Shown: positions 928 through 16,976 of the stretch, piece by piece
How positions within the stretch are numbered: position 1 is the first letter of the stretch
Layout: the number at the start of each line of letters is the position of its first letter
From: a virus
Reading direction: 5' to 3' (one strand)
DNA: 32,852 bases
IMG/VR virus record: IMGVR_UViG_3300044638_002232
Location: 1-32,852 of that record
Made by a program: the position numbers and the translations under genes
Notes under the pieces: model-generated
What the model was told of the DNA's origin: nothing
The model's input: the letters and a program-made list of their open reading frames with translations, nothing else
The model's database searches: none

Positions 928-947
928 AAATTTAAACAAATATAAAA

Positions 948-1244: not shown

Positions 1245-1269
1245 TAAATTTGAATCTAAATTTTAAACT

Positions 1270-3814: not shown

Positions 3815-4025
3815 CTAGTTTTTTTAGGTTTTTATATAAATATAGCTCCGCTTCCTTACGCTCTTCTAGCGTATAAAATAAGGCTATATTAATCGAAGTA
3901 GTAAAGGAGTATTGCAGCTCCCCCATTATTACCTGGTAGTTAAAATATGCCGGGTAACTACCGTAGATAAAATAGACTTTAATAGCGTAGTAGTTACTTG
4001 ATGTACGTGCCGTCAGGGTTCTCAT
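3783..4025 (-). CDS. Hypothetical protein (80 aa)
   Basis: Aromatic-rich (many Tyr and Phe), mixed alpha/beta appearance, with an acidic helix EERKEAELYLYKNLKKL near the C-terminus. No signal, membrane segment or known motif. It overlaps both neighbours by 32 bases. Coding is supported by the TG/CA-poor signature of the strand and the tight packing. Function unknown. Confidence 0.6.
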   Translation of the reverse strand: MRTLTARTSSNYYAIKVYFIYGSYPAYFNYQVIMGELQYSFTTSINIALFYTLEERKEAELYLYKNLKKLDVKYFEFENV

Positions 4026-4197
4026 TAGGATTTCTTTTATATTCGTAAAGAGGGTAGAAGCGATCGAAAGAATGCGCGTGTTGCCAAAAACCCGGGAATA
4101 GCTCGAAAAATAAACGACCGCCGAAGTAGCGCCATCTTACGTTCTTTCTAGCTTGGTTCTTCTCTATATATTCCGCTATATTATGAGTAGTTTTCAT
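3994..4197 (-). CDS. Hypothetical protein (67 aa)
   Basis: Short basic/aromatic protein with an N-terminal helix (NIAEYIEKNQARKN) and a Phe/Trp-rich middle (GRLFFELFPGFWQHAHSF). No recognisable family. The start overlaps the preceding gene's stop by 4 bases. It belongs to the early-type cassette of tiny proteins transcribed from the promoter near 6530. Confidence 0.6.
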   Translation of the reverse strand: MKTTHNIAEYIEKNQARKNVRWRYFGGRLFFELFPGFWQHAHSFDRFYPLYEYKRNPNENPDGTYIK

Positions 4198-4427
4198 ATA
4201 TTATAATAAGAGTTATAAAAGTCTTCCGCTTCGCTTAGAGCTTCTTCTTTAGATATATCTATAGTACCGTTCCAATAAGCGTCTTTTAGTTGTTCTTTCT
4301 CGAGCGCTTTCGCTTCCGCTATATCGTTCTGAGTTAGATACCCTTGCCTATGATGGTATCTTAGAGCTAACCATCCTACTGCCGTCTGAGTTGTTTCCAT
4401 TTTGGAAACTGCTGTTTGTTGTGCCAT
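4194..4427 (-). CDS. Small acidic phage protein (77 aa)
   Basis: Contains TAVGWLALRYH, a helix with ALEKEQLKDAYWNG, and an acidic end with EEALSEAEDFYNSYYN. This pattern (an ML/TAVxWL opening, an EKEQIKDA helix and a tyrosine-rich end) recurs in a very common but uncharacterised small protein of Bacteroidota phages. ATG 4427 is used here, but Met10 (4400) is an equally plausible start, since that family usually begins near METTQTAVGWL. The DNA upstream of about 4385 has ordinary composition. Confidence 0.7.
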   Translation of the reverse strand: MAQQTAVSKMETTQTAVGWLALRYHHRQGYLTQNDIAEAKALEKEQLKDAYWNGTIDISKEEALSEAEDFYNSYYNI

Positions 4428-4430
4428 AGT

Positions 4431-4616
4431 TTATAGTTTTTCTATTTCTTGTTTTACTTCTCTCCAATAAACTGCACCTTCATAATTCTGCGTTATATTC
4501 ATTATATGTCTTATCTCTTCTACTGCTATCAATACAAGTTCTTTAGCAAATGTTTTACTTACAACCTTTGACATATATGTTAAAACTAATGCTGATGCTT
4601 TTTCTTTCGGTTCCAT
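4431..4616 (-). CDS. Hypothetical protein (61 aa), similar to the 14719-14898 product
   Basis: Layout: KEKASALVLTYMSKV, then a helix with AKELVLIAVEEIRHIM, then YWREVKQEIEKL. This is a family frequent in Bacteroidota phages and unknown in function. The protein encoded at 14719-14898 has the same layout (AKECAKICVDILIEA, then LLWLEVKNKIKEI). Its DNA is rich in TG and CA, unlike most surrounding genes, which points to recent acquisition. Confidence 0.65.
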   Translation of the reverse strand: MEPKEKASALVLTYMSKVVSKTFAKELVLIAVEEIRHIMNITQNYEGAVYWREVKQEIEKL

Positions 4617-4633
4617 AGTTTATTTTTTATAGG

Positions 4634-4816
4634 TTATTTATCCTCAATATTTATATAGCCTACAATTACTCCGAACCCCGTAAATGCTGAAATAGTATAA
4701 ATAATCTCAGCCTTACCTATCGGACTCCAGTTACAGGTTATAGCTTTATAAAAGCATCTAATTTCTCCGATTAATAACAAAGCTGAAATGGTAAAAACAA
4801 TAGTAAATTTTTTCAT
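4634..4816 (-). CDS. Small membrane protein (60 aa)
   Basis: Two hydrophobic segments (about residues 3-18 and 39-54) with a short polar loop containing CNWSPIGKAE. Probably inserted in the inner membrane. It could act in superinfection exclusion or host membrane modification, but nothing specific supports that. DNA composition is ordinary, like 4431-4616, so the two probably arrived together. Confidence 0.6.
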   Translation of the reverse strand: MKKFTIVFTISALLLIGEIRCFYKAITCNWSPIGKAEIIYTISAFTGFGVIVGYINIEDK

Positions 4817-4826
4817 ATTTTATTTT

Positions 4827-5000
4827 TTAAATTATACCGTAGAGATCGTTTAGCTTACGTTCTTCGTATCGTTTTTTCTTATATACGCTTTCGCAATCCT
4901 TACAGTAGATCGCCATTTTATCTAACTTAGCGTTAGATTTATTATACTTAGATCTATCTTTTACTTCCTTACAGCGAGGGCATTGTTTTGAGTCTTTCAT
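4827..5000 (-). CDS. Small zinc-ribbon protein (57 aa)
   Basis: ATG at 5000, stop at 4827-4829. Two CxxC pairs (CPRC at residues 7-10 and CKDC at 33-36) with the spacer VKDRSKYNKSNAKLDKM, then a basic helix KKKRYEERKL. Same layout as the product of 3632-3814, so it is probably a paralogue or a fellow member of the HNH-type zinc knuckle group without a nuclease domain. The start overlaps the stop of the upstream membrane peptide (ATGA). Composition is TG/CA-poor. Confidence 0.65.
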   Translation of the reverse strand: MKDSKQCPRCKEVKDRSKYNKSNAKLDKMAIYCKDCESVYKKKRYEERKLNDLYGII

Positions 5001-5113
5001 AATTTTCGTTTAAATATAAAGTAAATTTCGTTAACGATATAGAAGCCTATCATAATAGGTAAGGCTACTAGAATAAAGTATACTACTTCTAATATTAACT
5101 TAATATTTTTCAT
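4997..5113 (-). CDS. Small single-pass membrane protein (38 aa)
   Basis: ATG at 5113 and stop at 4997-4999. Residues 4-26 form one hydrophobic helix (IKLILEVVYFILVALPIMIG) and the C-terminus is basic (FKRKL). ATGA coupling with the zinc-ribbon gene downstream and a 4-base overlap with the gene upstream show it belongs to the operon. Function unknown. Confidence 0.5.
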   Translation of the reverse strand: MKNIKLILEVVYFILVALPIMIGFYIVNEIYFIFKRKL

Positions 5114-5421
5114 CTTTCTTTTATTAAGGTTTCTACTATATCTTCTAGCTTATCTCGTTGATCCGGAGTAAGTAAAGCTATCCTATCTACTATAGCCGGG
5201 TACTGTAAAGGATCCGATAGTATCTCTACTTTAATCGCTTCTCTTACTCCTACGCCGAAGTGCGGATAGGTTATTACGTCGCGTAGAACCCAGTCTAATT
5301 TATCGCGGTAGCCTTTAAATATAATAGCTCCTCTAGTATTAGGCGCAGATCTAATAAAGTCATCTATATACTCCCTAGAGGCTCGTATATGATGGATAGC
5401 GGATATTATACTACTCCCCAT
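5110..5421 (-). CDS. Hypothetical protein (103 aa)
   Basis: Largest product of the minus-strand cassette. Mostly helical, beginning MGSSIISAIHHIRASREYID and ending with LTPDQRDKLEDIVETLIKER. No membrane segment or metal motif. It overlaps its neighbours by 11 and 4 bases. TG/CA-poor coding DNA supports long residence. Not recognised. Confidence 0.65.
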   Translation of the reverse strand: MGSSIISAIHHIRASREYIDDFIRSAPNTRGAIIFKGYRDKLDWVLRDVITYPHFGVGVREAIKVEILSDPLQYPAIVDRIALLTPDQRDKLEDIVETLIKER

Positions 5422-5596
5422 CTTCCGGAAGTATTACGGATCTAACCCAGCCATTTTTACGAAACTCCTCTACGGTTATACGTAGTATTAGTACGGCTTC
5501 TTCGCTATATATCATAGCGTCTATTAATTCTCCTAAGAGCTTATGGCGCTCGTTAGTATTTAATTCGGTCCATTTAGGCAAAAGCACTTGGGGCAT
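5411..5596 (-). CDS. Hypothetical protein (61 aa)
   Basis: Short helical acidic protein (LNTNERHKLLGELIDAMIYS, then VEEFRKNGWVRSVILPEDGE). Overlaps the next gene in the operon by 11 bases. No known motif. Confidence 0.6.
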   Translation of the reverse strand: MPQVLLPKWTELNTNERHKLLGELIDAMIYSEEAVLILRITVEEFRKNGWVRSVILPEDGE

Positions 5597-5608
5597 ATTG
5601 ATTGCGTT

Positions 5609-5794
5609 TTAATTGTTAGCGTATACTTTGATCGACAGAGCCGGCAGGTCATCCATATCGGTGGTAGGCTCCGGATCTTTTTCTTTATAGAAGTTACCGT
5701 ATTTTTCATACTGCCAAATTTCGTAAGGAGTTACCGGCAAAACTGATCCTGAAGTTGTCCTACTATCCATAATAGAGTTAATATTACTGCCCAT
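5609..5794 (-). CDS. Hypothetical protein (61 aa)
   Basis: Core PYEIWQYEKYGNF recalls an uncharacterised small family seen next to recombination genes in Bacteroidota phages. The N-terminal 20 codons (5731-5794) overlap another short frame (5731-5817) and have ordinary composition, so the true start is uncertain (Met1 or Met9). Confidence 0.55.
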   Translation of the reverse strand: MGSNINSIMDSRTTSGSVLPVTPYEIWQYEKYGNFYKEKDPEPTTDMDDLPALSIKVYANN

Positions 5795-5817
5795 CTTAGA
5801 ATTGTTTTAGGTTTCAT
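5731..5817 (-). CDS. Possible membrane peptide (28 aa)
   Basis: ATG at 5817 and stop at 5731-5733. The peptide has a basic start (MKPKTILRW), one hydrophobic helix (AVILTLLWIVG) and a polar end. It overlaps the start of the 5609-5794 frame. It could be a genuine toxin-like or regulatory membrane peptide, or a chance frame. Kept because its DNA shows the same ordinary composition along its whole length. Confidence 0.35.
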   Translation of the reverse strand: MKPKTILRWAVILTLLWIVGQLQDQFCR

Positions 5818-5821
5818 AATT

Positions 5822-5996
5822 ATTAGTTTTTTTTATCGTTATAGAACTCCGCGCAAGTATCGCATACTACTAGATCCTCCTCGGTATAAACTAGAGCGTA
5901 GGTTTCTCCGCAGTCGCATTTAGAGAACTTATTAATACATACCGGCTCTATCTCGCTAATAAATTCGGCTTCCCAGACTCTTATATATCTTTTCAT
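5822..5996 (-). pseudogene. Frameshifted zinc-ribbon protein
   Basis: From ATG 5996 the frame reads MKRYIRVWEAEFISEIEPV, then stops after two more codons. In another frame directly after this, a zinc-ribbon coding stretch continues with CINKFSKCDCGETYALVYTE, then CDTC, to a stop at 5822-5824, without any start codon of its own. Removing one base at the GGTTATG position (about 5939-5943) would join them into one 57-residue protein of the same size as the intact cassette members. This is either a true frameshift mutation, a slippage site or a sequencing/assembly indel. Confidence 0.55.
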
Positions 5997-6005
5997 ATAA
6001 TTAGT

Positions 6006-6212
6006 TTAAGGCATTACTATAATCCTAGTTATAGATTTATTTTCTTCTTTAATTTTACTTACGCAATCGGATAGCTTACCGTTAAGCATTACTACTTGAT
6101 TAGATATTTTACCGTCTACTATAGAGAAGACTTTAAGAAACCATAAGCCGGTACCTCTAGGCTTTTTATTATGAGATAACTCGTATTGTTCGGTAGCTAT
6201 TTGTACTTGCAT
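6006..6212 (-). CDS. Hypothetical protein (68 aa)
   Basis: Compact beta-rich protein beginning MQVQIATEQYEL, with the segment KKPRGTGLWFLKVFSI and a strand-turn-strand end (ITRIIVMP). The A-rich leader CGAAAAAATG precedes the start. No family recognised. Confidence 0.65.
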   Translation of the reverse strand: MQVQIATEQYELSHNKKPRGTGLWFLKVFSIVDGKISNQVVMLNGKLSDCVSKIKEENKSITRIIVMP

Positions 6213-6271
6213 TTTTTCGTATTTAGGTTATTATCTAAAGGAGGTGTAGGATGACTCGCCCCGAGAGATAA

Positions 6272-6499
6272 TTAGTTAATTAAAAAAACCTCTCCGCCTC
6301 TAAAATCGTACATTGTTCTAATTGCGTTTTTTTCTTTTAAAGAAGAGATAAGCTCCCTTACTTCTGAAAATGTAAATTTGCTATATACTACAAAATTATT
6401 TTCGTACTCGTAAGGAGCGCCGCAATGATCGTTATCTGCGCTCTTAATAAGATCTAAAATAAATTGCTCTGAATCGGTAAAGGTTTGTTTAGTGTTCAT
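6272..6499 (-). CDS. Hypothetical protein, possible winged-helix fold (75 aa)
   Basis: First gene of the minus-strand operon. I choose ATG 6499 (MNTKQTFTDSEQFILDLIKS) because the upstream in-frame ATG at 6538 lies at or before the promoter box at 6526-6533. Helix-helix then EVRELISSLKEKNAIRTMYD and a beta hairpin ending EVFLIN look like a small winged-helix or MarR-like layout, so an early transcriptional regulator is possible. That is structural intuition only. Confidence 0.65.
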   Translation of the reverse strand: MNTKQTFTDSEQFILDLIKSADNDHCGAPYEYENNFVVYSKFTFSEVRELISSLKEKNAIRTMYDFRGGEVFLIN

Positions 6500-6524
6500 T
6501 TTTTTTCGTTTTTGATTTGATAGA

Positions 6525-6559
6525 GCAAATATAGACATATATATATTACGAAAATCAAT
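6525..6559 (-). promoter_or_regulatory. Leftward Bacteroidota-type promoter
   Basis: On the minus strand TATATTTG (6533 to 6526) matches the Bacteroidota -7 consensus TAnnTTTG. A TTG at 6558-6556 lies 22 bases upstream, close to the usual -33 TTTG position. It would start transcription of the whole leftward cassette. TTTG is rare in the TG-poor backbone, which makes the match more notable. Confidence 0.65.
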
Positions 6560-6602
6560 TTTAGAAATATTTTTTAAATTATTTTTTATTTCGGGAAAAC
6601 CC

Positions 6603-6610
6603 TATATTTG
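6603..6610 (+). promoter_or_regulatory. Rightward Bacteroidota-type promoter (-7 box)
   Basis: TATATTTG followed by C is identical to the divergent leftward box at 6526-6533. The -33 element is weak (AT-rich, TTTC near 6588). It is placed 26 bases before the ATG of the small regulator at 6636 and would drive the recombination operon. The two boxes share an AT-rich stretch of about 70 bases where a regulator could act on both. Confidence 0.65.
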
Positions 6611-6635
6611 CATTTCATCAAACAATTAAAATAAA

Positions 6636-6791
6636 ATGGAACGACTTAAACCCGGGCGTAAGAAGCTACCGGAAGAACAGAAAACTAAAATGGTATCCGC
6701 CTACTTAAAGGAATCCGAAAAGAAAGCTATCGTAAAAAAATACGGATCCTTAACGAAAGCCGTAAAAGAGTTAATTATTCCTAATCTTTAA
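6636..6791 (+). CDS. Small ribbon-helix-helix-like regulator (51 aa)
   Basis: ATG 6636, stop 6789-6791. The sequence opens KPGRKKLPEEQKTKMVSAYL and continues with two short helices (ESEKKAIVKKYGSLTKAVKE). A basic arm, one beta strand and two helices is the layout of small RHH-type DNA binders, often seen as the first gene of early operons. It may repress the divergent promoters immediately upstream. Family assignment is tentative because of its size. Confidence 0.6.
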   Translation: MERLKPGRKKLPEEQKTKMVSAYLKESEKKAIVKKYGSLTKAVKELIIPNL

Positions 6792-6803
6792 AATAAAACA
6801 AGT

Positions 6804-7499
6804 ATGAATCAGATCGTAAAATCAACGACGGACGCGCTAAGTATCGGAGAAACTTTCTTTAAATCCGGGATGTTTGCCGATATTAAGAGCGCGCAGCAAG
6901 CGGTAGTTAAGATTATGGCGGGAGCCGAGATGGGTATATCTCCCTTCGCCGCAATGGGGGGGATCCATATAATTCAAGGTAAGCCTACGATAGGAGCCGG
7001 ATTAATGGCAGCCCGAGTTAAAGGCTTCGGTAAGTACGACTACCGGGTAGTAGAGCATACCGATAAAGTCTGCGCTATAGAGTTCTTAGAGAAGCTTCCG
7101 GCTAACGGATTAAAATCTCTAGGTATATCTACCTTTACGATAGAAGACGCTCGTAAAGCCGGTACTAAGAACCTAGAGAGATTCCCTAAAAATATGCTTT
7201 TCGCCCGGGCGATGTCTAACGGCGTAAAGTGGTATACTCCGGATATATACGAATCTCCCGTATACGTACCCGAAGAGATGGAAGCCGTAACCGAAGACGC
7301 TCCCTCTATCGAAGTACCTAAGAAGAAAGTACTAACGCCGGAGCAATTCGATAAACTTTGCGCCGGAATCGAAGCTAAACAACTAGCCGCCGGTACGGAT
7401 CTTAGCCTCTACGATTGGGCGCTAGAAAACGTAGAACTAAACGAAGGACAGCGCCTGCAGATCGACGTATGTAATAAACCTCAAAATTTCGTACTATGA
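6804..7499 (+). CDS. RecT-like single-strand annealing protein
   Basis: 231 residues. The N-terminal 150 residues carry the hallmark pattern of a large phage recombinase group: FFKSGMFADIKSAQQAVVKI, AGAEMGISPFAAMGGIHI, QGKPTIGAGLMAARVK, then FTIEDARKAG and FPKNMLFARAMSNGVKWY. The C-terminal 70 residues are acidic and variable. Such proteins anneal complementary single strands with a partner exonuclease, and a RecE-like nuclease gene lies just downstream, with an SSB-like gene after it. The stop overlaps the next start (ATGA). The recombinase role is well supported by context; the subfamily is uncertain. Confidence 0.75.
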   Translation: MNQIVKSTTDALSIGETFFKSGMFADIKSAQQAVVKIMAGAEMGISPFAAMGGIHIIQGKPTIGAGLMAARVKGFGKYDYRVVEHTDKVCAIEFLEKLPANGLKSLGISTFTIEDARKAGTKNLERFPKNMLFARAMSNGVKWYTPDIYESPVYVPEEMEAVTEDAPSIEVPKKKVLTPEQFDKLCAGIEAKQLAAGTDLSLYDWALENVELNEGQRLQIDVCNKPQNFVL

Positions 7500-8539
7500 A
7501 CAACCTAACCCCCCAACAAGCCGGATGGATTACACTAGCGGATATTAAAGCTACTCTATTTAAAGATCTAGAAAGAGCGGAGCTACAGGTACAAGAATAT
7601 ATTAACGGTATAGAAGGTAATCCGCTAGACGTAGTACAATCGAATATAAAGAACGCTAAGACGGTTTTAGCGGACGCTAAGGCTAAGCGCCTAGAGTTTA
7701 CTCGATTAATCGACGAGAAGCTTACCGCGCCTTCTATGCTCTACGAAAAGCGTATGCTAGATAATATAGCTACCGCTTCGACCTACGAGCTAGAGCTACG
7801 TAAACTCGAAGAGTCGCGAGTAAATAACGAGCAGGCTTTTCTTAACGAGGTATCCGCGTATCGTACGCATATCGTTAACGAGTGGTTTCGTATCGCCGCC
7901 GAGTATCGTAATAACCTAGAGAAAGGAGTACGCGAAAGCTATACGAACTGCCTACGCGATAGACACGACGTGCGCCTTATACCGGATATGGTTCGTAATA
8001 CCGGAGAGATTATAGCCGGGTTTAAATTACCCCCGTTTAATAAGTTTAACCGCGTATTAATAACGGACGGACAGGCTAAAGAAATCTACGATAGTATAGA
8101 AAAATACGATCCGTCTAGCGATCTAAAACGGATTACGGCTACTATCGAAGACGTATGGGCCACGTATCCTTTCGATCTAGCTAACGCCGAAAACGCTATT
8201 AAGGCTCTAGAAGAAGCTACCGCTAAAAAAGAAGCCGAAACGCTAAACGCTATCGCTCTAGAAGTAGCTACTAATACTCTTATAGCCCAAGCCGAAACGG
8301 TAGTAATAGATACGCCTAAAGTAAAGCGAGAGATAAAAATAATCGTAATAGAATCCGAAGAGTGGGCTAAAACTATTATACTTAACTTCGTACGCCTTCT
8401 TCCTAACCTAGCTCCGAAACTCCGCGTAAAATCTTGGGGGAAGCTATCTATAGGACAAATGGCGGAAGCTTTAAATAAGTATCTAAACGAAACCGGAGAA
8501 ACTATTAACGGCTTAAAAACGGAAGAAGTATGCAAGTAA
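7496..8539 (+). CDS. Coiled-coil protein of the recombination operon (347 aa)
   Basis: Long helical protein with predicted coiled coils at about residues 25-130 and 225-275, with many Ala, Glu and Lys, and a small C-terminal domain ending LNKYLNETGETINGLKTEEV. Proteins of this shape (DUF1351-like in my memory) often sit between a phage annealing protein and its exonuclease. It overlaps both neighbours (4 and 10 bases), so the three genes are translationally coupled. No catalytic motif is visible. Confidence 0.7.
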   Translation: MNNLTPQQAGWITLADIKATLFKDLERAELQVQEYINGIEGNPLDVVQSNIKNAKTVLADAKAKRLEFTRLIDEKLTAPSMLYEKRMLDNIATASTYELELRKLEESRVNNEQAFLNEVSAYRTHIVNEWFRIAAEYRNNLEKGVRESYTNCLRDRHDVRLIPDMVRNTGEIIAGFKLPPFNKFNRVLITDGQAKEIYDSIEKYDPSSDLKRITATIEDVWATYPFDLANAENAIKALEEATAKKEAETLNAIALEVATNTLIAQAETVVIDTPKVKREIKIIVIESEEWAKTIILNFVRLLPNLAPKLRVKSWGKLSIGQMAEALNKYLNETGETINGLKTEEVCK

Positions 8540-9120
8540 CTAACGTACAGTACTATAAAGGCTACGACTTCGAAAAGTACCAAGCCTTAGAAGGCAATTC
8601 CTATAGCTCTATTAAAGGCGGTACTTTTAAGTCTACTCCTAAAATGAGGTTAGGTACCGCCGTACATAACTTTCTACTAGAGCCGGAGAAATACGATAAT
8701 TCTAACCGCGATTTAGTTTACCCTATCGCTAACGTAGTAGCGCAGAATCTAGGAGATATACTACCCTTCCTAGATACGGAGCTATCCGTAACCTGCGATA
8801 TGTCATACGAAGGCTTTACGATGCCCTATAGAGGTCGCGTCGATATGGTACGCTGCGGTAAAGTCGTAGTAGATCTTAAAGTAAGCGAGATACCTCTAAG
8901 CCGGTCGGTAGCGTTCTTCGGATACGCTAAGCAATTAACCGGGTATTGTCTAGCTACCTCCTCCGATTACGGTATTATAATACGCGTCTGCCCTAAAACC
9001 TATAAAGTAGAAAAAACCTCTATACGTAAAGACGTAGCGTGGTGGGAGCAAAAAGTACTAACGCTAGGTATACCTAGTAATATCTATAACCATACCGGCT
9101 CTGGTCAACCGGCTTTATAA
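8530..9120 (+). CDS. RecE/RecB-like PD-(D/E)XK exonuclease
   Basis: 196 residues. The nuclease core is readable: His46 in MRLGTAVHNFLLEPEKY, Asp105 in RGRVDMV, Asp115-x-Lys117 in VVVDLKVS, and the QxxxY motif Gln135/Tyr139 in YAKQLTGYCLA. This is the order seen in phage RecE-type double-strand exonucleases that resect DNA ends for the annealing protein. It starts 10 bases inside the coiled-coil gene. The length is short, comparable to minimal phage versions. Confidence 0.8.
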   Translation: MQVTNVQYYKGYDFEKYQALEGNSYSSIKGGTFKSTPKMRLGTAVHNFLLEPEKYDNSNRDLVYPIANVVAQNLGDILPFLDTELSVTCDMSYEGFTMPYRGRVDMVRCGKVVVDLKVSEIPLSRSVAFFGYAKQLTGYCLATSSDYGIIIRVCPKTYKVEKTSIRKDVAWWEQKVLTLGIPSNIYNHTGSGQPAL

Positions 9121-9122
9121 TT

Positions 9123-9395
9123 ATGAGCACACTTTATACGGGATCTATTTGCGTATCGGATATTCCGAAAGAGAAGCTAACGCAGGCTAAAAACGGTAAG
9201 CTTTACCTAAACCTCGACCTTTGGGTTAACGACGAGAAAGACCAATACGGAAATATTGGCTCTCTATCCGTACGTCAAACTAAGGAAGCTAGAGAAGCTA
9301 AGGAGAAGAAAGTCTATATCGGTAACTTTAAACCGCTAGAAAAGACCGCTCCGGAGCCTCCTACGGCGCAAGCTTACGATGATTTACCTTTCTAA
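9123..9395 (+). CDS. SSB-like single-stranded DNA-binding protein (90 aa)
   Basis: Short beta-rich protein (LYTGSICVSDI, GKLYLNLDLWVNDEKD, KKVYIGNF) that ends in AYDDLPF. A flexible acidic tail ending DDLPF or DDIPF is the partner-binding signature of bacterial SSB proteins. The OB fold is abbreviated compared with standard SSB (90 residues against about 110 in the core). It lies 2 bases after the exonuclease gene and is the last gene before a strong terminator. Confidence 0.75.
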   Translation: MSTLYTGSICVSDIPKEKLTQAKNGKLYLNLDLWVNDEKDQYGNIGSLSVRQTKEAREAKEKKVYIGNFKPLEKTAPEPPTAQAYDDLPF

Positions 9396-9404
9396 ACTAC
9401 GAAG

Positions 9405-9436
9405 TAGGTCGGTATAGATTTACCGACCTATTTTTT
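9405..9436 (+). terminator. Rho-independent terminator
   Basis: A perfect 10-base-pair stem (TAGGTCGGTA / TACCGACCTA) with a 6-base loop is followed by six T. It closes the recombination operon and separates it from the modification genes. Confidence 0.9.
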
Positions 9437-9450
9437 AAACTAAACACAAA

Positions 9451-10086
9451 ATGAATAGATTTGACTTTAATACTATAATAAATTTCGACGATCATATAGA
9501 TAAGAGTATACCTAACTACGATTTACTTATAAGCGCGACGCAAAGTATTAGCGAGTATTTTTTTATTAAAGGCGCTAACGTCTACGACCTCGGTTGCTCT
9601 ACCGGCAAACTCCTAAAGTCTATAAAAACGACTTGTAAGAAAATAGGATACGATTACTCTACCCTACTTCCTTCTTCGACTAATAGCGAGAGATTCGAAA
9701 ACGTTAATCTTAACGAGAGCTTCGAATTAAAAAACGCTTGTCTAGTTTACTCGATCTTTACGATGCAGTTCCTAGATCCTAATAAGCGCTTAGACTATCT
9801 AAGAAATATCTACGAAGGATTAAACGAAGGAGGAGCTTTAATTATCTGCGAGAAGGTATACCAAGACTCCGGAAAATTTCAAGACATACTAGGTTTCTCC
9901 CATTACGACTATAAGCTTAATAGCTTTACTTCGGAAGAGATACTAAGTAAAGAAAGAGATCTACGGTATATAATGAAGCCTAATACCGAAATAGACCTAA
10001 GCTCTCTTATAGATAAATCCGGGTTTAAAGAAGTAACTACTTTCTGGCAGATGTTTAATTTTAAGGGTTATCTAGCAATAAAGTAA
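9451..10086 (+). CDS. CmoA-like carboxy-SAM synthase homologue
   Basis: 211 residues matching CmoA (carboxy-S-adenosyl-L-methionine synthase) over nearly its full length: INFDDHIDKSIPNYDLLI (compare E. coli PDMIQRSVPGYSNII), motif I VYDLGCSTG (44-52), the ribose-binding Asp68 in KIGYDYS, FTMQFLDP (103-110), IYEGLNEGGALIICEKV (120-136), and the end TFWQMFNFKGYLAIK. CmoA converts SAM and prephenate to Cx-SAM; E. coli Arg199, which holds the carboxylate, aligns without gaps to Glu168 here, with Arg169 next to it, so substrate binding must be tested. In bacteria the product feeds CmoB for tRNA wobble uridine, but no CmoB-like gene is present. The next gene, 5 bases downstream, is a DNA methyltransferase with a suggestive substitution. 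E. coli CmoA is longer (247). Confidence 0.8.
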   Translation: MNRFDFNTIINFDDHIDKSIPNYDLLISATQSISEYFFIKGANVYDLGCSTGKLLKSIKTTCKKIGYDYSTLLPSSTNSERFENVNLNESFELKNACLVYSIFTMQFLDPNKRLDYLRNIYEGLNEGGALIICEKVYQDSGKFQDILGFSHYDYKLNSFTSEEILSKERDLRYIMKPNTEIDLSSLIDKSGFKEVTTFWQMFNFKGYLAIK

Positions 10087-10091
10087 TTAAT

Positions 10092-11186
10092 ATGAGAAGA
10101 TTTATATACGATCTAGATTTCGTAAAGCGTCAGGAGTCTTTAAAACTATTTAACGTCGTTTCTCTTTTCGCCGGAGGAGGAGGTAGTAGTACCGGGTATA
10201 GGTTAGCCGGAGGTAATATACTAGCTATAAACGAATTTATACCTGCTGCTCAGATCGCGTACGCTAGAAACTATCCTTCTACGTATATCTTTAAAGAAGA
10301 TATACGTAAGCTAACCGGAGATATGATACTAAATAAAATAGGCTTAAATAAAGGAGAGTTAGATATACTAGACGGATCTCCGCCTTGCTCTAGCTTCTCT
10401 ACCGCCGGACTAAGAGAAGAAGGATGGGGTAGAGAAAAAAAGTACTCCGATTCCGCGCAACGTACGGACGATCTATTTTTCGAGTTCGCACGTATACTAA
10501 AGGATATACAACCTAAAGTATTTATCTGCGAAAACGTTAAAGGTATAACTCTAGGAGCCGCTAATAATTTACTAGGATCTTCGCAGATAGATATTTTCGA
10601 AGATGCTCCGGATACGATATTTAAAGCTCTAAGCGAAGCCGGTTATAAAGTACGCTTTAAAGTTCTTAACGCTAAAGATTTCGGAGTACCTCAATCGAGA
10701 GAGCGTACGATCTTTATAGGAGTTAGAAAGGATTACGATATACCTATAACGTATCCGATTAATAAAACGGATTATAAATACGTTACTACGGAAGACGCTT
10801 TTAGATATTTATTTCAGACGGAAGAAGAGATAAAAGAAACTAATATCGAGAAGTATGCGATTTACGCGCAGTCTATAATACTAGATAAAGGAGAACAGTC
10901 TAATAAATACTTTAGCTTAGTAAAGCTAGATCCTAGTTCTGTCTCGCCTTGCCTTACCGCTACCGCCGGGAGTATCGGAGCGGCTAGTGTAATACATTGG
11001 GATAACCGGAAACTAACCGTAAAGGAAGCTATACGCGTTAGTTCTTTCCCGGATGATTACTATTTAGGAGAAACCTACCAACAGAAGATAGAAAGGCTAG
11101 GGAGAGCCGTACCGCCTTTAATGATGCGCGGAGTAGCCGAGCACGTTTACAATACTATATTAAAAAAAATTAAATATGACTTATAA
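10092..11186 (+). CDS. DNA cytosine-C5 methyltransferase with Arg in motif X (candidate carboxymethyltransferase)
   Basis: 364 residues with the ordered C5-MTase motifs: I FAGGGGSSTG (26-35), IV GSPPCSSFS (95-103, catalytic Cys99), VI ENVKG (147-151, Glu147), VIII QSRERTIFIG (201-210), a target-recognition region at about 215-285, then LTVKEAIRVSSFPDDY and motif X. Motif X reads ERLGRAVPPLM: Arg338 replaces the Asn that is nearly invariant in GNxVP. An engineered basic residue at this Asn in M.MpeI permits Cx-SAM use, so with the CmoA homologue just upstream the product may be 5-carboxymethylcytosine. Target sequence unknown. The composition is that of the phage backbone. It could alternatively be an ordinary methyltransferase with a tolerated substitution. 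Confidence 0.9.
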   Translation: MRRFIYDLDFVKRQESLKLFNVVSLFAGGGGSSTGYRLAGGNILAINEFIPAAQIAYARNYPSTYIFKEDIRKLTGDMILNKIGLNKGELDILDGSPPCSSFSTAGLREEGWGREKKYSDSAQRTDDLFFEFARILKDIQPKVFICENVKGITLGAANNLLGSSQIDIFEDAPDTIFKALSEAGYKVRFKVLNAKDFGVPQSRERTIFIGVRKDYDIPITYPINKTDYKYVTTEDAFRYLFQTEEEIKETNIEKYAIYAQSIILDKGEQSNKYFSLVKLDPSSVSPCLTATAGSIGAASVIHWDNRKLTVKEAIRVSSFPDDYYLGETYQQKIERLGRAVPPLMMRGVAEHVYNTILKKIKYDL

Positions 11187-11637
11187 AGAAAGATATCAGA
11201 AAGCCCACGAAGAGTACTTTAAGATTAAATACCCTAACGCCTATAAAGACGGTTATTATTTAGATCCTAAGGTACCTAAAGTAGATAGCGCGAACGGGTT
11301 AACTACTTTTATTTGTAATTACTTAGCGTGGTTAAACCATCGAGCGACGCGTATTAACGTTTCCGGAAGACTAGTAGACGGAGTAGAGAAGCAACCTAGC
11401 GGAGCTAAAATAGGAGTAAAGAAGTGGATACCTTCATCTACCCGTAAAGGCACTGCCGATATATCCGCTACGATTAAAGGTAGATCGGTTATGCTAGAAA
11501 TTAAAGTAGGATCGGATAGACCTAGACCGGATCAGTTAACCGAACAAGCGAGAGAGCGCCGCGCCGGAGGTATATACGAGTTTATTAAAACGCCGGATGA
11601 GTTCTTCTATTTATACGATTATATAGTATCTTTATAA
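11176..11637 (+). CDS. VRR-NUC-type PD-(D/E)XK nuclease
   Basis: 153 residues. The C-terminal half carries the VRR-NUC core: WIPSSTRKGTADISATIKG (Asp95), VMLEIKVG (Glu108-x-Lys110), then RPDQLTEQARERRAGGIYEF (Gln120). Such phage enzymes are structure-specific or site-specific nucleases associated with replication and recombination intermediates. The gene overlaps the DNA methyltransferase by 11 bases, so the two are probably translated together. Whether it senses the modification state of DNA is an open question raised by the context, not shown by sequence. Confidence 0.8.
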   Translation: MTYKERYQKAHEEYFKIKYPNAYKDGYYLDPKVPKVDSANGLTTFICNYLAWLNHRATRINVSGRLVDGVEKQPSGAKIGVKKWIPSSTRKGTADISATIKGRSVMLEIKVGSDRPRPDQLTEQARERRAGGIYEFIKTPDEFFYLYDYIVSL

Positions 11638-11662
11638 GCTCTAAAAGTCAAATCACCTACGT

Positions 11663-13951
11663 ATGGACATTAAAATATTTCACGACATATTTAATATGGG
11701 GCTTACTCCTATTCCTATTAAGTGGGATACCGAAAGTAAAGACGCGCGGATATATCCGGAACATAAAACGGATATTAGAAACGGTAGCGACCGCCCCGAC
11801 CTAGACGATATTACTCGTTGGTTTAATAAGATACAAGACGCTAACGGTATGGCTCTAAAACTATACCCCCCGTATTTTATGTTCGACTTCGATCTAAAAA
11901 ACGATAAGCGTAAAAATATCTTCGACGAATTTCTTAAAACCGTACGCGCCCTAAACGAAGACGTACTACGTAAAGTATGTATCGAGTCTACTAGATCTAA
12001 CGGCTACCACGTTTACGCTAAGTATAGTAAGATAACTAATAAGCGTATGCTCGCGCTCTCCGAAGAAGGTCGGGAAGTAATAGCTATATATACCGGCGGA
12101 CTACTTAGCTTCTGCGCTCCTACCCCCGGGTACGAGTTTATCCATAACGAGTTCGACGATATCGAAGAACTAACTAGCGACGAGTTCGATACGCTATGCT
12201 CTATCGCTTCATACTTTAACGCCTATACGAAAGGCGACGAACTAACCCCGGAAGCTAAGATTATAGAGTACCCTTCCGAATACGAAGCGATAGCTTTAAA
12301 ATTCGATAGCGACGCTACCGACGACATCTTTATAGAACTTCTTAACTCCCTAGATTTATACGAAGTAAAAGATAAACGCCTATTTAGTCGTAAGAAGTTT
12401 ACTCCCTACCTTCGAAAAGGATCTAACGCGACCTACTCCGCTAAAGTCTATTTCGGTAGTAAGAAGCTTTTATTAATGTCCGCCTCCTTCGTCGACTACC
12501 CTAACTTTCATACTAAGATTAACGAAAACGATACGTCTTGGGTTCTTACTCCTACCCGGATAATATACTATAAGTCTAAACGGGATTGGCGCCTTACGAT
12601 AGATACGATAGAAATGATCTGCGCGGATAACGATATAGACCTATCTCCGAAGCTAGATATAACTAACGTAGCGATAAACGATAAAGCCGCCTTCCCGTAC
12701 GATATATTCCCGGAAGAAATACAAGGGTTTATAAGATCGCAAAGAATACAACACGAATATCTAGCCGGTTCTATTCTAGCCGCTTTATCTACCGCTATAG
12801 GAAACTCTACGATACTAAGTCCTTTCGACGGGTATATAGTTAAACCTATTCTCTATATGGCGATCGTAGCTCCTCCCGGAGCCTCTAAAACTCCGGCGCT
12901 TACTAAAGCTTTTAAACCTATCGAAGAGTACGATAACGAGCTTTATAAGAGCTACGAGCTACTTCTTAAAGATTATAACGATAGACTAGCCGAGTACGAT
13001 AAGAGTAAGAAGAAAGGAGAAGAGAAGCCTCTAAAGCCTTCTTTCCCGCAAACGATTATAAAAGACTCTACGATAGAAATGGTCGTTAAAATACTATCCT
13101 TTAATAAAGGAGGCTGCGCTCTCGTAGCGGACGAGTTAGTCGGTTTCTTAAATAGAATGAATCAATATAAATCCGGTGACGAAGTACAGAAATGGCTTTC
13201 TATGTGGTCCGGCGATTCTATACTACTACAACGTATAACGCGCGACGAGAATAAGGTAGAAGAACCGTTTTGTACTATCGTAGGAGGTATACAACCGGGC
13301 GTGCTAGAATCGCTAAGCCGGGACGATAATGCCCATAACGGGTTTTATCATAGGTTTATTTTCGTATACCCGGAGCCGCAACGTAAAACGGAGTGGGAAC
13401 AGATAACCGTACCGAAGCACGTTAACGATAGCTTTAGAAAGATATTTATAGATCTTATAAACCTCCGAAAGGAAGAGAAGGCGATATACTACCTATCGCC
13501 GGAAGCTAACGACCTATATAAATCGTGGTTTGATAATAAGAATAAAAAGTATAACGTAGCTACGAGCGACCATATTAAAGGGATTATAGCTAAATATCAG
13601 GACTACTGCCTACGCTTCGCCCTAATTATACAAGTAGCCGAAGATCTAGGTAATCGTAGCTACGAGATACGTTTAGCCTCTATAGAAAGAGCTATACGGC
13701 TTACGGAGTACTTTCTATCGAATATGCATAAAGCTTTAAAACTACTAAACCCGGATAACCCGGTAGAAGCTCTTATAGGAGTAACGGAAAAACTATATAA
13801 GCAACTCCCGGCGAACTTTACTACTAAAACGATAGTTACAATCGGAACAAGTTTAGGTATGAAAGAATCTACGGTAAAGGTATTTTTAAAGCGAAACGTC
13901 GGTAAACTCTTCGAAAAGATAGAAAGAAACACGTACGAGAAGGCTTTTTAG
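11663..13951 (+). CDS. Prim-pol / DUF3987 primase-helicase
   Basis: 762 residues. The N-terminal 200 residues resemble a bifunctional primase-polymerase domain: GLTPIPIKW, RPDLDDITRWF, the metal pair Asp75/Asp77 in FMFDFDLKN, and SNGYHVYAKYS. The C-terminal part is a DUF3987-type P-loop ATPase with Walker A PPGASKT (404-410) and Walker B ALVADELVGF (Asp490-Glu491), followed by GGIQPGVL. Together they would lay primers and unwind DNA, the only replication initiator-like protein in the genome (no DNA polymerase gene is visible, so host polymerase is needed). A repeat-rich candidate origin begins at its stop codon. Confidence 0.85.
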   Translation: MDIKIFHDIFNMGLTPIPIKWDTESKDARIYPEHKTDIRNGSDRPDLDDITRWFNKIQDANGMALKLYPPYFMFDFDLKNDKRKNIFDEFLKTVRALNEDVLRKVCIESTRSNGYHVYAKYSKITNKRMLALSEEGREVIAIYTGGLLSFCAPTPGYEFIHNEFDDIEELTSDEFDTLCSIASYFNAYTKGDELTPEAKIIEYPSEYEAIALKFDSDATDDIFIELLNSLDLYEVKDKRLFSRKKFTPYLRKGSNATYSAKVYFGSKKLLLMSASFVDYPNFHTKINENDTSWVLTPTRIIYYKSKRDWRLTIDTIEMICADNDIDLSPKLDITNVAINDKAAFPYDIFPEEIQGFIRSQRIQHEYLAGSILAALSTAIGNSTILSPFDGYIVKPILYMAIVAPPGASKTPALTKAFKPIEEYDNELYKSYELLLKDYNDRLAEYDKSKKKGEEKPLKPSFPQTIIKDSTIEMVVKILSFNKGGCALVADELVGFLNRMNQYKSGDEVQKWLSMWSGDSILLQRITRDENKVEEPFCTIVGGIQPGVLESLSRDDNAHNGFYHRFIFVYPEPQRKTEWEQITVPKHVNDSFRKIFIDLINLRKEEKAIYYLSPEANDLYKSWFDNKNKKYNVATSDHIKGIIAKYQDYCLRFALIIQVAEDLGNRSYEIRLASIERAIRLTEYFLSNMHKALKLLNPDNPVEALIGVTEKLYKQLPANFTTKTIVTIGTSLGMKESTVKVFLKRNVGKLFEKIERNTYEKAF

Positions 13952-14240
13952 TTACAAAGTTACAGCAAAGTTACAACGGCTGTAACTTTCAAACCTAGTG
14001 TAGGAGCGGGTTATAGGTCAAAGTTACAAAGTTACATACTTACTAAGAAGTAAAAAATACTTATATTATATATATATATATAATACGTATATAGGTATTT
14101 AGAGATAGAGATACCGAAAAACCTGTAACTTTGTAACTATCACTATAACTCGCTAGAAATCAATGACTTAAAAGTTACAATCGGTGTAACTATTCTGTAA
14201 CTATTGTAACTTTCGAAATATTTATCTAATTATTTATAAT
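13951..14240. other. Candidate replication origin: iterons and AT-rich core
   Basis: 290 bases without a confident gene. Six GTTACA (13951, 13959, 13970, 14023, 14031, 14174) and six TGTAAC (13981, 14124, 14132, 14185, 14196, 14205) motifs occur within 260 bases. The 14-mer GTTACAAAGTTACA is present at 13951 and 14023 and in inverted form at 14124-14137. AAAGTTACA (13967-13975) and TGTAACTTT (13981-13989) form a perfect hairpin. The inner inverted pair encloses an AT-rich stretch (about 14050-14100, with an alternating TA run). These motifs contain TG and CA, which the backbone avoids, implying selection. Position right after the primase-helicase supports an origin; a regulatory array is the alternative. 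Confidence 0.65.
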
Positions 14241-14248
14241 TTTATACT

Positions 14249-14722
14249 ACGAAAAACTCTAAAGACATAATAGCCGAGCTTTATATATCTAACGACCTAC
14301 GGGTATGTTTATCGCGTATCCGCCCGATAGATATACAGGAGGAGGTATTACAGCATACTTTCGAGGATCTCCTCTCTAAGCCGGAAGAATTTATTATAGA
14401 TCTCTATAATAGAAATAAATTAAAGGCTTACGTCGCTAAAATGCTCGTTAATATGGTCCGATGGGAAAGAGGCTCGTTTAGGAAGCTAGAGGCGAAGGAA
14501 ACGTACTTAGAATCGCTACCGGACGTAGTAGAGGAAATAGAAGTAGAGGTAATTGTAGTACCTTTACATAGAATCCATTGGTACGAAGCTAAAATACTAG
14601 AACTATACGCAGAACTAGGTACGTATCGTAAGGTAGCCGAAGCGACGGGCATACCGCATATTTCGATATACCATACGGTACAGAACGCTAGGAAGAATAT
14701 TAAAAAATTTATAGATATATGA
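14249..14722 (+). CDS. Sigma-70-like factor, start codon unclear
   Basis: From codon 14249 the frame gives about 157 residues with a region-2-like part (DIQEEVLQHTFEDLLSKPEE, NRNKLKAYVAKMLVNMVRWE) and a C-terminal region-4-like helix-turn-helix (ILELYAELGTYRKVAEATGI, then SIYHTVQNARKNIKKF). The first ATG is at 14441, which would discard most of region 2. The frame is open to 14240 but holds no ATG, GTG or TTG before 14441. The bases TTTTATACTACGAAAAAC would give ATG-ACT-ACG-AAA if one G followed 14245, so an indel is possible. Probable role: directing host RNA polymerase to the late genes downstream. Confidence 0.65.
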   Translation, partial: TKNSKDIIAELYISNDLRVCLSRIRPIDIQEEVLQHTFEDLLSKPEEFIIDLYNRNKLKAYVAKMLVNMVRWERGSFRKLEAKETYLESLPDVVEEIEVEVIVVPLHRIHWYEAKILELYAELGTYRKVAEATGIPHISIYHTVQNARKNIKKFIDI

Positions 14723-14898
14723 ACTCCCGAGATATAGCTATAGGTTTAGTAGAACGGTTCGAGGAGTACGTTCACGGGCCAGTTAGGTATAACGCTAAAG
14801 AATGCGCTAAGATCTGCGTAGATATACTTATAGAAGCTAATATATTCCCGGATAACTTATTATGGTTAGAAGTAAAAAATAAAATAAAAGAAATATGA
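14719..14898 (+). CDS. Hypothetical protein (59 aa), similar to the 4431-4616 product
   Basis: ATG at 14719, stop at 14896-14898, coupled by ATGA overlaps on both sides. A helix with YNAKECAKICVDILIEAN is followed by LLWLEVKNKIKEI, the pattern of an uncharacterised small Bacteroidota phage family. The minus-strand protein at 4431-4616 has the same layout. No function known. Confidence 0.65.
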   Translation: MNSRDIAIGLVERFEEYVHGPVRYNAKECAKICVDILIEANIFPDNLLWLEVKNKIKEI

Positions 14899-15098
14899 AA
14901 GAACTAGAGTACCTCTACGAGAGAGTAAAAATCGGAATCGATGCCCACGCTTCGGATATCGAAATAGAGAAATTTATAGCATTAGCTAAGGAGATTAACC
15001 CCGAGTTAGATTGGGCGGTTAGAGGCTGCCAATCCTGCGTTAACGAGCTAGTACGGTTCGTATTCGAAAACTATAAAAACGAAGAAAATGCCGACTAA
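14895..15098 (+). CDS. Hypothetical protein (67 aa)
   Basis: Acidic helical protein (LEYLYERVKIGIDAHASDIE, then LDWAVRGCQSCVNELVRFVF). It contains two nearby cysteines (CQSC) but no second pair. It overlaps the terminase small subunit gene by 11 bases, which suggests a link with packaging or simply operon compaction. I recall similar proteins just before terminase genes in Bacteroidota phages. Confidence 0.6.
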   Translation: MKELEYLYERVKIGIDAHASDIEIEKFIALAKEINPELDWAVRGCQSCVNELVRFVFENYKNEENAD

Positions 15099-15510
15099 GA
15101 AAGGAAGAGGAAAATATATAGAAAGCCCGGAAGTACTATGGGAGCTATTCGAGGCGTATTGTAAAGACGCTAAAAGTAAGCCGTTTATCGTTACAGATTG
15201 GGTAGGAGGAGCCGGAGTACAGGTAGATCGTAAGAAGGAAAGACCTCTAACGATGGAAGGCTTTAGTATCTTCTGTTGGGATAAGATAAGCCAGATTAAA
15301 GACTATTTCGCGAATACGGGAGGAAATTATACCGAATATTTACCTATCTGCGCGCGTATAAAGGAAGCTATACGAGAAGATCAGATAGGCGGAGGTATGG
15401 CAGGTATCTATAACCCGTCGATAACGCAGCGCCTTAACGGACTCGTAGAGAAGACTCAAACGGACGTAAAGGTAGAGCAAGGTTTATTTCCGGACGTTAA
15501 ACCTGAGTAA
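15088..15510 (+). CDS. Terminase small subunit (DNA-packaging protein)
   Basis: 140 residues. The segments ESPEVLWELFEAYCKDAKSK, ERPLTMEGFSIFCWDK, YTEYLPICARIKEAIREDQI and NPSITQRLNGLVEKTQ match the gp3-like small terminase group common in Bacteroidota phages and prophages. The role is recognition of phage DNA for packaging. A basic N-terminus (MPTKKGRGKY) precedes it. The stop is immediately adjacent to the large-subunit start (shared base at 15510). Confidence 0.8.
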   Translation: MPTKKGRGKYIESPEVLWELFEAYCKDAKSKPFIVTDWVGGAGVQVDRKKERPLTMEGFSIFCWDKISQIKDYFANTGGNYTEYLPICARIKEAIREDQIGGGMAGIYNPSITQRLNGLVEKTQTDVKVEQGLFPDVKPE

Positions 15511-16703
15511 TGGCTTTTATACGTACTACCGCTATTAATAAGATCTTAAAGCTTAGGCGCTTCGTTAGAGGCGTACAAGGTGGTACTTCTGCCGGCAAAA
15601 CGTACGCTATACTTCCTATACTAATAGACGTAGCGGCTAAATCTCCCTTTAGCGAGATATCGGTAGTAGCGGAATCGATACCGCACTTAAAGCGCGGAGC
15701 GATGAAAGACTTTAAAAAAATAATGTTCGAAACCGGGCGCTGGTTCGAAGAGCGTTGGAATGCTACCGACTTTAAATATACCTTCGCTAACGGATCTGTA
15801 ATAGAGTTCTTTTCGGCGGATAACGACGCTAAGCTAAGAGGAGCTAGAAGAGATTGGCTATATATGAACGAAAGTAATAATATGAGCTTTCACGCATATA
15901 CCGAATTAGCCTCTCGTACTAAGAAAGGCGTATACCTAGATTGGAATCCTACTAACCCGTTCTGGTTTCACGACGAACTACTAAACGATACCGACGTAGA
16001 CTTTTTAATTATTAACTACCTAGATAACGAAGCTTGCCCGGAATCCGCTTTAAACTTTATCCTAAAGGCTAAAGAGAAGGCTAGTACCGGATCAGGCTTT
16101 TGGACTAATTGGTACCGCGTCTACGGCTTAGGAGAGATCGGATCTCTAGACGGAGTAGTATTTAATAATTGGGAGCCTTGCGAGTCTATACCGAAAGAAG
16201 CCGAGTTTATAGCCTACGGATTAGACTGGGGTTTTACGAACGATCCAACGGCGCTTATAGAGGCTTATAGGTACGACGGAAAGATATACGTAAACGAGTT
16301 ACTATATCAGACTAAGCTTACTAACGGAGAGATAATAGCGCGTTTAAAAGCCTACGGAGTACATAGCTCTAGAGCTATCGTAGCAGATTCGGCGGAGCCT
16401 AAGAGTATAGCGGACGTAAGTAACGCCGGTTTCTATATCGAGGCTGCTAGGAAAGGACCAGACTCTATAAAGGCTTCTATCGATAGATTACAACAGTACG
16501 AAATTAGGGTTACGAAAAATAGCCTAAATTTGATTAAAGAACTACGGCAGTACCGTTGGGCTAAGGATAGAGAAGGAAGAGCGCTTAACGCTCCGGAAGA
16601 TATAATGAACCACGCTATAGACGCGTTAAGATATATAGGGTTAAATAAGCTTTCGCAGTTCGAGAATAGCGGTAACTACTCCTTCGCGGAAGATGACTAC
16701 TAG
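15510..16703 (+). CDS. terL: Terminase large subunit
   Basis: 397 residues. The ATPase domain shows Walker A GGTSAGKT (24-31), a coupling segment DWLYMNESNN after the LRGARR motif, and DWNPTNPFWF. The nuclease domain (from about 215) shows YGLDWGFTNDPTAL, VADSAEPKSIADV and the final metal ligand region NHAIDALRYIG. This is the PBSX-like Terminase_3 type. It drives headful or site-specific packaging with the small subunit upstream. Confidence 0.93.
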   Translation: MAFIRTTAINKILKLRRFVRGVQGGTSAGKTYAILPILIDVAAKSPFSEISVVAESIPHLKRGAMKDFKKIMFETGRWFEERWNATDFKYTFANGSVIEFFSADNDAKLRGARRDWLYMNESNNMSFHAYTELASRTKKGVYLDWNPTNPFWFHDELLNDTDVDFLIINYLDNEACPESALNFILKAKEKASTGSGFWTNWYRVYGLGEIGSLDGVVFNNWEPCESIPKEAEFIAYGLDWGFTNDPTALIEAYRYDGKIYVNELLYQTKLTNGEIIARLKAYGVHSSRAIVADSAEPKSIADVSNAGFYIEAARKGPDSIKASIDRLQQYEIRVTKNSLNLIKELRQYRWAKDREGRALNAPEDIMNHAIDALRYIGLNKLSQFENSGNYSFAEDDY

Positions 16704-16736
16704 TTTTGTGTTTAGTTAGTGATTTGACATACTACC

Positions 16737-16765
16737 CCCCGGCGTTTCTACGTTAGGGGTTTTTT
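16737..16765 (+). terminator. Probable terminator after terL
   Basis: CCCCGGCG pairs with CGTT-A-GGGG (two G-T pairs and one bulged A), loop TTTCTA, followed by six T. It is weaker than the other terminators in the window but correctly placed between terL and the tRNA-like element. Confidence 0.6.
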
Positions 16766-16769
16766 AAAA

Positions 16770-16883
16770 AGTCGGGTGGCGGAATTGGTAAACGCAGTGG
16801 TAAGCGAGGATGACCACTTTAGGTATAAGGTGGGAACGCTCTAACATCTCTAAAAAATGCAGGTTCGAATCCTGCCCCGACTA
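16770..16883 (+). tRNA. tRNA-Leu-like element with abnormal anticodon and variable region
   Basis: The acceptor arms AGTCGGG (16770-16776) and CCCGACT (16876-16882) pair perfectly, the T-arm GCAGG-TTCGAAT-CCTGC (16859-16875) is perfect, and the D-arm TGGCGGAATTGGTAAACGC is typical of class II tRNA-Leu. The next stem AGTGGT/ACCACT encloses 11 bases instead of 7, and about 40 bases lie between it and the T-arm. Total length is about 114, far above the usual 82-90, so I cannot name an anticodon. It could be a degenerate tRNA, one with an insertion, or a tRNA mimic. It is flanked by two terminators. Confidence 0.6.
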
Positions 16884-16911
16884 CTAACATAGCTCTCGCA
16901 GGCGGTTAATC

Positions 16912-16939: not shown

Positions 16940-16976
16940 CTAGAAACAAAACTAGCAAAACGACCACTTATAGTAT

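Follow-up and report, generated by a model that had tools for sequence, protein, structure and literature searches.

A phage gene pair encoding a homologue of the carboxy-SAM (Cx-SAM) synthase CmoA and a C5-cytosine methyltransferase (C5-MTase) with arginine in motif X raises the question of whether the phage carboxymethylates cytosine in DNA and, if so, at which sequence. The preliminary description of this locus had proposed that the phage CmoA makes Cx-SAM and that the motif-X-Arg enzyme uses it to write 5-carboxymethylcytosine, a mechanism since supported by homology to a proven pair. It had also stated that no natural case was described, which is out of date, as natural DNA carboxymethylation has been reported for Synechococcus phage S-B43 and its CmoA/CmoX/CmoY system (Yang et al. 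2025, Nat Commun, 7 Dec 2025; PMC12783734; PDB 8YF3). As described in that report, the phage CmoA (SpCmoA) makes Cx-SAM, SpCmoX writes 5-carboxymethylcytosine at GC, and CmoY adds glycine; Arg350 of SpCmoX contacts the cofactor carboxylate in a solved Cx-SAM-bound structure, the R350N mutant is inactive, and 5cxmdC was detected by LC-MS, with none in a delta-cmoA strain (PMC12783734). The same report lists 5,615 CmoX candidates from IMG/VR, UniProtKB and MGnify-derived phage sequences (PMC12783734).

The whole stretch of DNA analysed here (the window; 32,852 nucleotides) carries a two-gene cassette that is almost certainly a new member of that system, in a genome strongly depleted of the dinucleotides CA and TG. 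The features are as follows.

1..2500, no strand: tail-fibre/lysis module of normal composition (rho CA 1.14)
3601..30650, no strand: CA/TG-depleted core by dinucleotide composition (rho 0.34, 41 CA+TG per kb)
9451..10086, + strand: cmoA, predicted phage-type Cx-SAM synthase, 211 aa (TIGR00740, CmoA PDB entries, phrog_4752, SpCmoA tblastn)
10092..11186, + strand: cmoX, C5-cytosine carboxymethyltransferase homologue, 364 aa (PF00145, 8yf3, AF2 model)
10377..10388, + strand: catalytic SPPC motif with Cys99, by sequence; invariant in 24 aligned homologues
10734..11003, + strand: target-recognition domain (TRD), residues ~215-304, replaced relative to the sister phage G001
11097..11117, + strand: motif X, LGRAVPP, with Arg338 where Asn is usual (aligned with GRMVPP of SpCmoX)
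11176..11637, + strand: small nuclease-like gene overlapping the cmoX 3' end (phrog_93 endonuclease, 8.5e-7)
30700..32852, no strand: tail-fibre module of normal composition (rho CA 1.21)
32797..32852, no strand: terminal overlap of 56 bases with positions 1-56, 1 mismatch (comparison of the ends)

The product of 9451-10086 had been called CmoA-like from end to end, and the open reading frame, its motifs, the family profile and known structures agree on this. A profile search matched it to TIGR00740 over residues 4-211 of 211 (E=1.5e-32); the CmoA entries 4gek, 1im8 and 4iwn of the PDB matched at E ~1e-25 and phrog_4752 at 2.4e-53, the predicted model gave Z 27.0 over 206-208 residues against 1im8 and 4gek, and identity to the proven SpCmoA was 40.2% by tblastn. 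The score of 113.2 bits lies below the curated TIGR00740 cut-off of 193.3 and places the protein outside the bacterial CmoA equivalog. Since SpCmoA, a proven phage enzyme, scores 115.6 bits and likewise falls under the cut-off, such a shortfall is normal for phage CmoA, and the window gene is filed by sequence as a putative phage CmoA rather than as the TIGR00740 bacterial equivalog. A weak point had been suspected in Glu168, which takes the place of E. coli CmoA Arg199, a residue that we take to be a Cx-SAM contact. As the proven SpCmoA also has Glu there, Glu168 does not count against the window protein and the suspicion is removed; a K-E-x-x-L-R signature at this place is common to both phage proteins.

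The cmoX gene begins after a gap of 5 bases, with cmoA upstream in the same genome. Its product matched PF00145 (E=7.4e-54) and PDB 8yf3, which is SpCmoX (E=1.3e-70), and the AF2 model agreed with 8yf3 at Z 40.6 (rmsd 1.9 over 314 residues), the next best entry reaching 32.3. Arg338 aligned with Arg350 of SpCmoX, the residue contacting the Cx-SAM carboxylate in 8YF3, which confirms 10092-11186 as the C5-MTase with Arg at the motif-X Asn position that had been claimed at the outset. Together, the S-B43 CmoA and CmoX are ~40-46% identical to the window homologues, with an identity of 0.18 between the two TRDs. Because the TRD differs from that of SpCmoX and GC is undepleted in the window (1.29), GC is an unlikely target for the window CmoX.

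The motif-X arginine recurs among the relatives. It was present in 73/73 extracted CmoX proteins (one per locus, with duplicate loci partly removed and the window, a same-species copy and reference phages included) and in 80/80 CmoX of a separate scan that took the best 80 of 594 matches, the two sets sharing at least 4 contigs. Among these best 80, CmoA lay near CmoX at >=60 bits in 54 loci and as a weaker match (43-60 bits) in 16; the other 10 had none within flanks of <=6 kb, and 5 of these 10 loci are <7 kb.

Thirteen CmoA loci without a clear CmoX were examined for other C5-MTases, with the result that 4 held divergent enzymes, 2 were Staphylococcus phages with Gly, and 7 had none in the fragment; for one of these 7, L037, a CmoX is located elsewhere on the same contig, G013. 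The divergent enzymes (L031:8224-9171, L032:1370-2332, L039:1859-2923 and L046:549-1550) are 24-29% identical to SpCmoX and have a motif-X Arg by eye and no SPPC, with PCQ in L031 and L032, and the published filter of SPPC and R350 would overlook them. In the Staphylococcus phages (L007:6488-7495 and L008:6648-7646) the C5-MTase near CmoA has Gly at motif X (GGVIN) and may hold Cx-SAM differently. Moraxella phage Mcat8 (L003, 15779-17486) encodes a CmoX 52% identical to that of the window, with GRMVAP, and directly downstream a divergent CmoA (74.8 bits); both are annotated as hypothetical, and the phage has no CA/TG purge.

The terminal overlap of the window indicates that the 32.9-kb genome is essentially complete. 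The sister G001 (32,875 bases, with an exact 127-base terminal repeat) is colinear with it and carries both CmoA and CmoX; amino acid identity is 80.7% over 20 orthologues and reaches 97% among the structural proteins. G002 and G003 have little in common with the window beyond the cassette (for G003, also a distant terminase and a tail-fibre piece), and the cassette therefore moves as two genes. Another colinear sister, G008 (L217+L218), has orthologous structural proteins 51-89% identical to those of the window and carries at the cassette locus (25671-26333) an N6/N4 amino-MTase (PF01555) instead of CmoA/CmoX; between G008 and the window this is an exchangeable modification locus. The 11176-11637 gene is kept in G001, with CmoX, and in G008, without it. 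Its product, which we take by eye to be VRR-NUC-like, had no Pfam match at gathering level, and a Vsr-like repair nuclease was rejected on that resemblance. At 16770-16883 on the + strand the window has a tRNA-like element of 114 nt (Rfam, 45.6 bits) with an enlarged anticodon region, which ARAGORN did not call.

No CmoY was found in the window by tblastn with 4 ligase queries (E<=0.01), nor any match to PF00733, a profile that also misses the G014 ligase. A CmoY-like ligase is present in G013, G014 and G015 and was absent from the window, G001, G002, G003, G011, G012 and G021. With no detectable CmoY, the likely end product is 5-carboxymethylcytosine, either left as it is or converted to a derivative by an unrecognised enzyme. 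The host is probably a member of the Bacteroidota, since the terminase relatives in cellular genomes are mostly from this phylum (75/80 among the best 80 of 141, identity <=49%). Nine such cellular genomes had 0 CmoA above the profile cut-off, under which phage CmoA also falls, and 8 of them had weaker matches, a result that does no more than fit a phage supplying its own CmoA. Two Flavobacterium genomes gave CmoA-profile matches of 64-70 bits, and the 3.6-kb loci of these matches gave no CmoA/CmoX match except a weak one to SpCmoA (E 4e-4).

The CA/TG purge spans about 27 kb of the window, and in the core (3601-30650) CG has a rho of 1.69 and TA of 1.44. Under a null model preserving the proteins and the codon usage, observed/expected CA/TG at codon junctions was 0.13 in the window vs 0.89 in the colinear G001; 80 terminase-related background loci had a mean rho CA of 1.10 (sd 0.11, range 0.85-1.63). 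Over 18,210 aligned bases, avoidable CA/TG fell from 1517 in G001 to 372 in the window (0.245) and was lower in 16/16 flanking contexts (0.05-0.44 of G001). Residues that force CA/TG are also fewer in the window, Gln falling from 212 to 160, Met from 149 to 118, His from 82 to 65 and Cys from 54 to 43, and the count of Trp is 66 in both. Of the CA/TG that remain, ~650 lie in the two tail-module ends, and the core holds 1106. The normal composition of these ends marks a mosaic boundary and suggests recent exchange and slow purging.

Several causes of the purge were considered and rejected. An assembly artefact does not account for the purge being present also in four further contigs of this species (G004, G005, L108 and L112, rho 0.28-0.48). 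Avoidance at the RNA level does not agree with CA and TG falling alike on the coding strand and is further countered by the minus-strand gene block 3632-6538, which is depleted too (rho 0.51). Host codon usage was dismissed because colinear sisters differ and because codon-internal and junction positions are both affected.

The comparison of window and G001 sets the purge beside the TRD. Identity between their CmoX proteins is 0.88 over residues 1-223, 0.35 over 224-303 and 0.79 over 304-360, so that the catalytic half is shared and the TRD is not, and junction CA/TG differs as given above. In G008, with the amino-MTase locus, CA is normal (1.09) and AG/CT is purged (0.42). In the separate scan, with the window and its same-species copy left out, 6 loci had a TRD score >=200 to the window and 5 of them (L383, L384, L386, L387 and L388) were CA/TG-purged (0.14-0.33), as was 1 among 145 other loci, L411. 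The Fisher test of 5/6 vs 1/145 gave p 6e-8 with related loci counted separately; after merging at 90% CmoX identity the groups stood at 3/4 vs 1/86 (p 1e-4), and at 70% identity at 1/2 vs 1/42 (p 0.09). The phages behind the five purged loci are related, with 67-99.8% nucleotide identity over the stretches they share, and form three lineages of one related group; the support for a link between TRD and purge is therefore moderate. A distant terminase (44-50%) is common to the window and 4/5 of this group, whose catalytic halves are 0.57-0.59 identical to that of the window, below the 0.88 of G001. The CA/TG minimum was 0.76 in 80 terminase loci and 1.01 in 79 gp23 loci, none reaching 0.14-0.33. 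The exceptional L411:6001-7338 encodes a CmoX whose single catalytic domain carries two TRD/motif-X units in tandem; its contig is depleted of CA/TG (0.22) and, to a lesser degree, of CC/GG (0.67).

Phages with other CmoX types were also compared. As a calibration on a known target, 14 loci with a CmoX >=85% identical to the GC-specific SpCmoX had GC at 0.20-0.38, and 79 cyanophage gp23 loci, unscreened for CmoX, had a median of 0.82 and a minimum of 0.41. Some other CmoX contigs are depleted of different C-containing pairs, at 0.49 for AC/GT (G013), 0.41 for GA/TC (L035), and 0.62 and 0.66 for CC/GG (G001 and G011). A strong dinucleotide purge was found in 34% of 32 CmoX TRD-cluster representatives vs 17% of 47 background loci (p 1.7e-5 in a Mann-Whitney test of the lowest z, the genomes being of mixed GC content and relatedness). 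L396, with a similar TRD (score 202), is unpurged at CA/TG 1.09; G002, G003, G012 and G021 have no strong dinucleotide purge, G002 and G003 avoiding CAG/CTG; and the rank correlation of TRD score with CA over 152 loci is weak (-0.22). Because of L396, the unpurged TRD types and purged phages in which no C5-MTase was found, we infer with moderate strength that CmoX specificity can be read from the purge.

Purges of other kinds were seen in passing. Synechococcus phage S-SSM7 (L117) has GC at 0.54 at junctions and no C5-MTase was found in its genome; GC avoidance in cyanophages extends beyond CmoX carriers. Among the terminase relatives, AG/CT is 0.31-0.58 in L195 (0.31), L161, L169 and L165, in whose fragments an MTase was looked for and none found, and CG is 0.04 in L168. 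A G008-type MTase occurs without an AG/CT purge in L162 and L124, so the test of AG/CT purge against MTase is mixed.

Two alternatives to a selective purge by a carboxymethylating enzyme can be given little weight. That CmoX is a conventional 5mC methyltransferase using SAM, with CmoA serving something else, is scarcely credible: the fold is general to C5-MTases and the CmoX activity is a prediction, but the proven homologue accepts only Cx-SAM (PMC12783734) and the divergent CmoA-linked MTases also have, by eye, an Arg in the corresponding position. The preliminary description had allowed that motif-X-Arg enzymes might occur mostly without CmoA; this does not hold, as all 80 homologues have the arginine and 54-70 of these CmoX loci have a CmoA nearby (best 80 of 594). 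A very improbable alternative is that CA/TG were lost by plain mutation, carboxymethylated C in CA being deaminated and then copied as T, in the way that methylated CpG decays. Mutations are known to concentrate at modified cytosines, and TA, a direct product, is enriched (junction 1.85). The codon positions nevertheless argue against simple C-to-T decay, which was set aside on the codon-class comparison with G001. The amino-acid-changing classes, NCA codons (0.21 of G001) and T-G junctions (0.19), fall as much as the mostly silent ones, C-A junctions (0.15) and CTG/TTG/GTG (15/87 = 0.17); third-position A has given way to T, G and C, and CG is enriched as much as TA. As the four codon classes fall alike, selection rather than decay is favoured. 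Between the window and G004 there are 376 isolated differences, of which 57 alter CA/TG content, and these fit either mutation or selection.

A more serious alternative, although still an unlikely one, accepts the gene pair as real and holds that CA/TG avoidance is imposed by the host through CA-keyed restriction or a DNA-level defence, the TRD being a second answer to it or unrelated. CmoX does block the restriction enzyme HhaI in vitro, according to the S-B43 report (PMC12783734). Related phages without CmoX in their available sequence also avoid one dinucleotide (G008, L195 and L168, at the values given above), and most CmoX TRD types are unpurged. However, every CA context is depleted, whereas restriction sites usually comprise at least four bases; the CA/TG left in the tail ends and the core are tolerated, unlike the sites of a cutting enzyme; and among the sisters the avoided pair tracks the modification gene and not kinship. 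We prefer, at a probability of about 0.62, the reading that CmoX targets CA and that the genome avoids the target of its own enzyme. By homology to the S-B43 enzymes, CmoA would convert SAM and prephenate to Cx-SAM, and CmoX would transfer the carboxymethyl group to cytosine C5, with Arg338 holding the cofactor carboxylate. The TRD, exchanged relative to the close sister, would most likely recognise CA (complement TG), and since that exchange selection would have removed most CA/TG except in the recently exchanged tail-fibre module, presumably through a selective cost for each modified site. Avoiding the site of one's own enzyme is not obviously useful. A speculative and rather doubtful suggestion is that a CA-specific CmoX acts mainly on host DNA, where carboxymethylation of the numerous chromosomal CA sites would cripple transcription or mark the chromosome for phage nucleases, with the CA/TG-purged phage largely exempt; the missing dinucleotide of a phage genome would then reveal the specificity of its modification enzyme.

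With natural DNA carboxymethylation already published, the pair alone is another member. New here is the 32.9-kb genome, nearly complete and probably from a phage of Bacteroidota, which has CmoA and CmoX and no detectable CmoY. Possibly new as well is the genome-scale trace, in which two phage groups sharing a CmoX TRD type are both purged of one dinucleotide, and phages with the one CmoX of known target (GC) are purged of that target. If the preferred reading is right, genome composition could reveal the specificity of some phage modification enzymes that are still uncharacterised, and the question is raised of why a virus avoids the site that its own enzyme modifies, for which the window, G001, L383 and L396 provide natural enzyme sets for probing the relation of TRD and avoidance.

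In the open-licence PMC literature, preprints being outside this scope, nothing relevant beyond the S-B43 paper and no report of phage CA/TG depletion was found. The bacterial CmoA/CmoB pathway of tRNA cmo5U formation resembles the window cassette in its CmoA homologue and Cx-SAM cofactor; the target here would instead be DNA, and the absence of a CmoB-like enzyme, remarked on earlier, was upheld by a profile search for PF08003 in the window and the sister G001 (0/2). M.MpeI N374K, an engineered carboxymethyltransferase acting mainly at CG (as cited in PMC12783734), likewise has a basic motif-X residue that lets a C5-MTase use Cx-SAM, but it is a laboratory mutant, whereas the window CmoX is a natural phage gene. 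Avoidance of restriction-modification recognition sites, as described for genomes (e.g. PMC4687349), is similar in that a short DNA motif is under-represented; in the window the motif is a non-palindromic dinucleotide, depleted in every context and associated with a phage-encoded modification enzyme. The closest counterpart is the S-B43 system, with which the window shares a phage CmoA and an adjoining C5-transferase of the same fold (Z 40.6) with SPPC and a motif-X Arg. It differs in being a two-gene cassette with no CmoY detected, where S-B43 has CmoY, in belonging to an unrelated phage of 33 kb, probably of Bacteroidota, and in having a TRD only 18% identical within a genome purged of CA/TG rather than GC.
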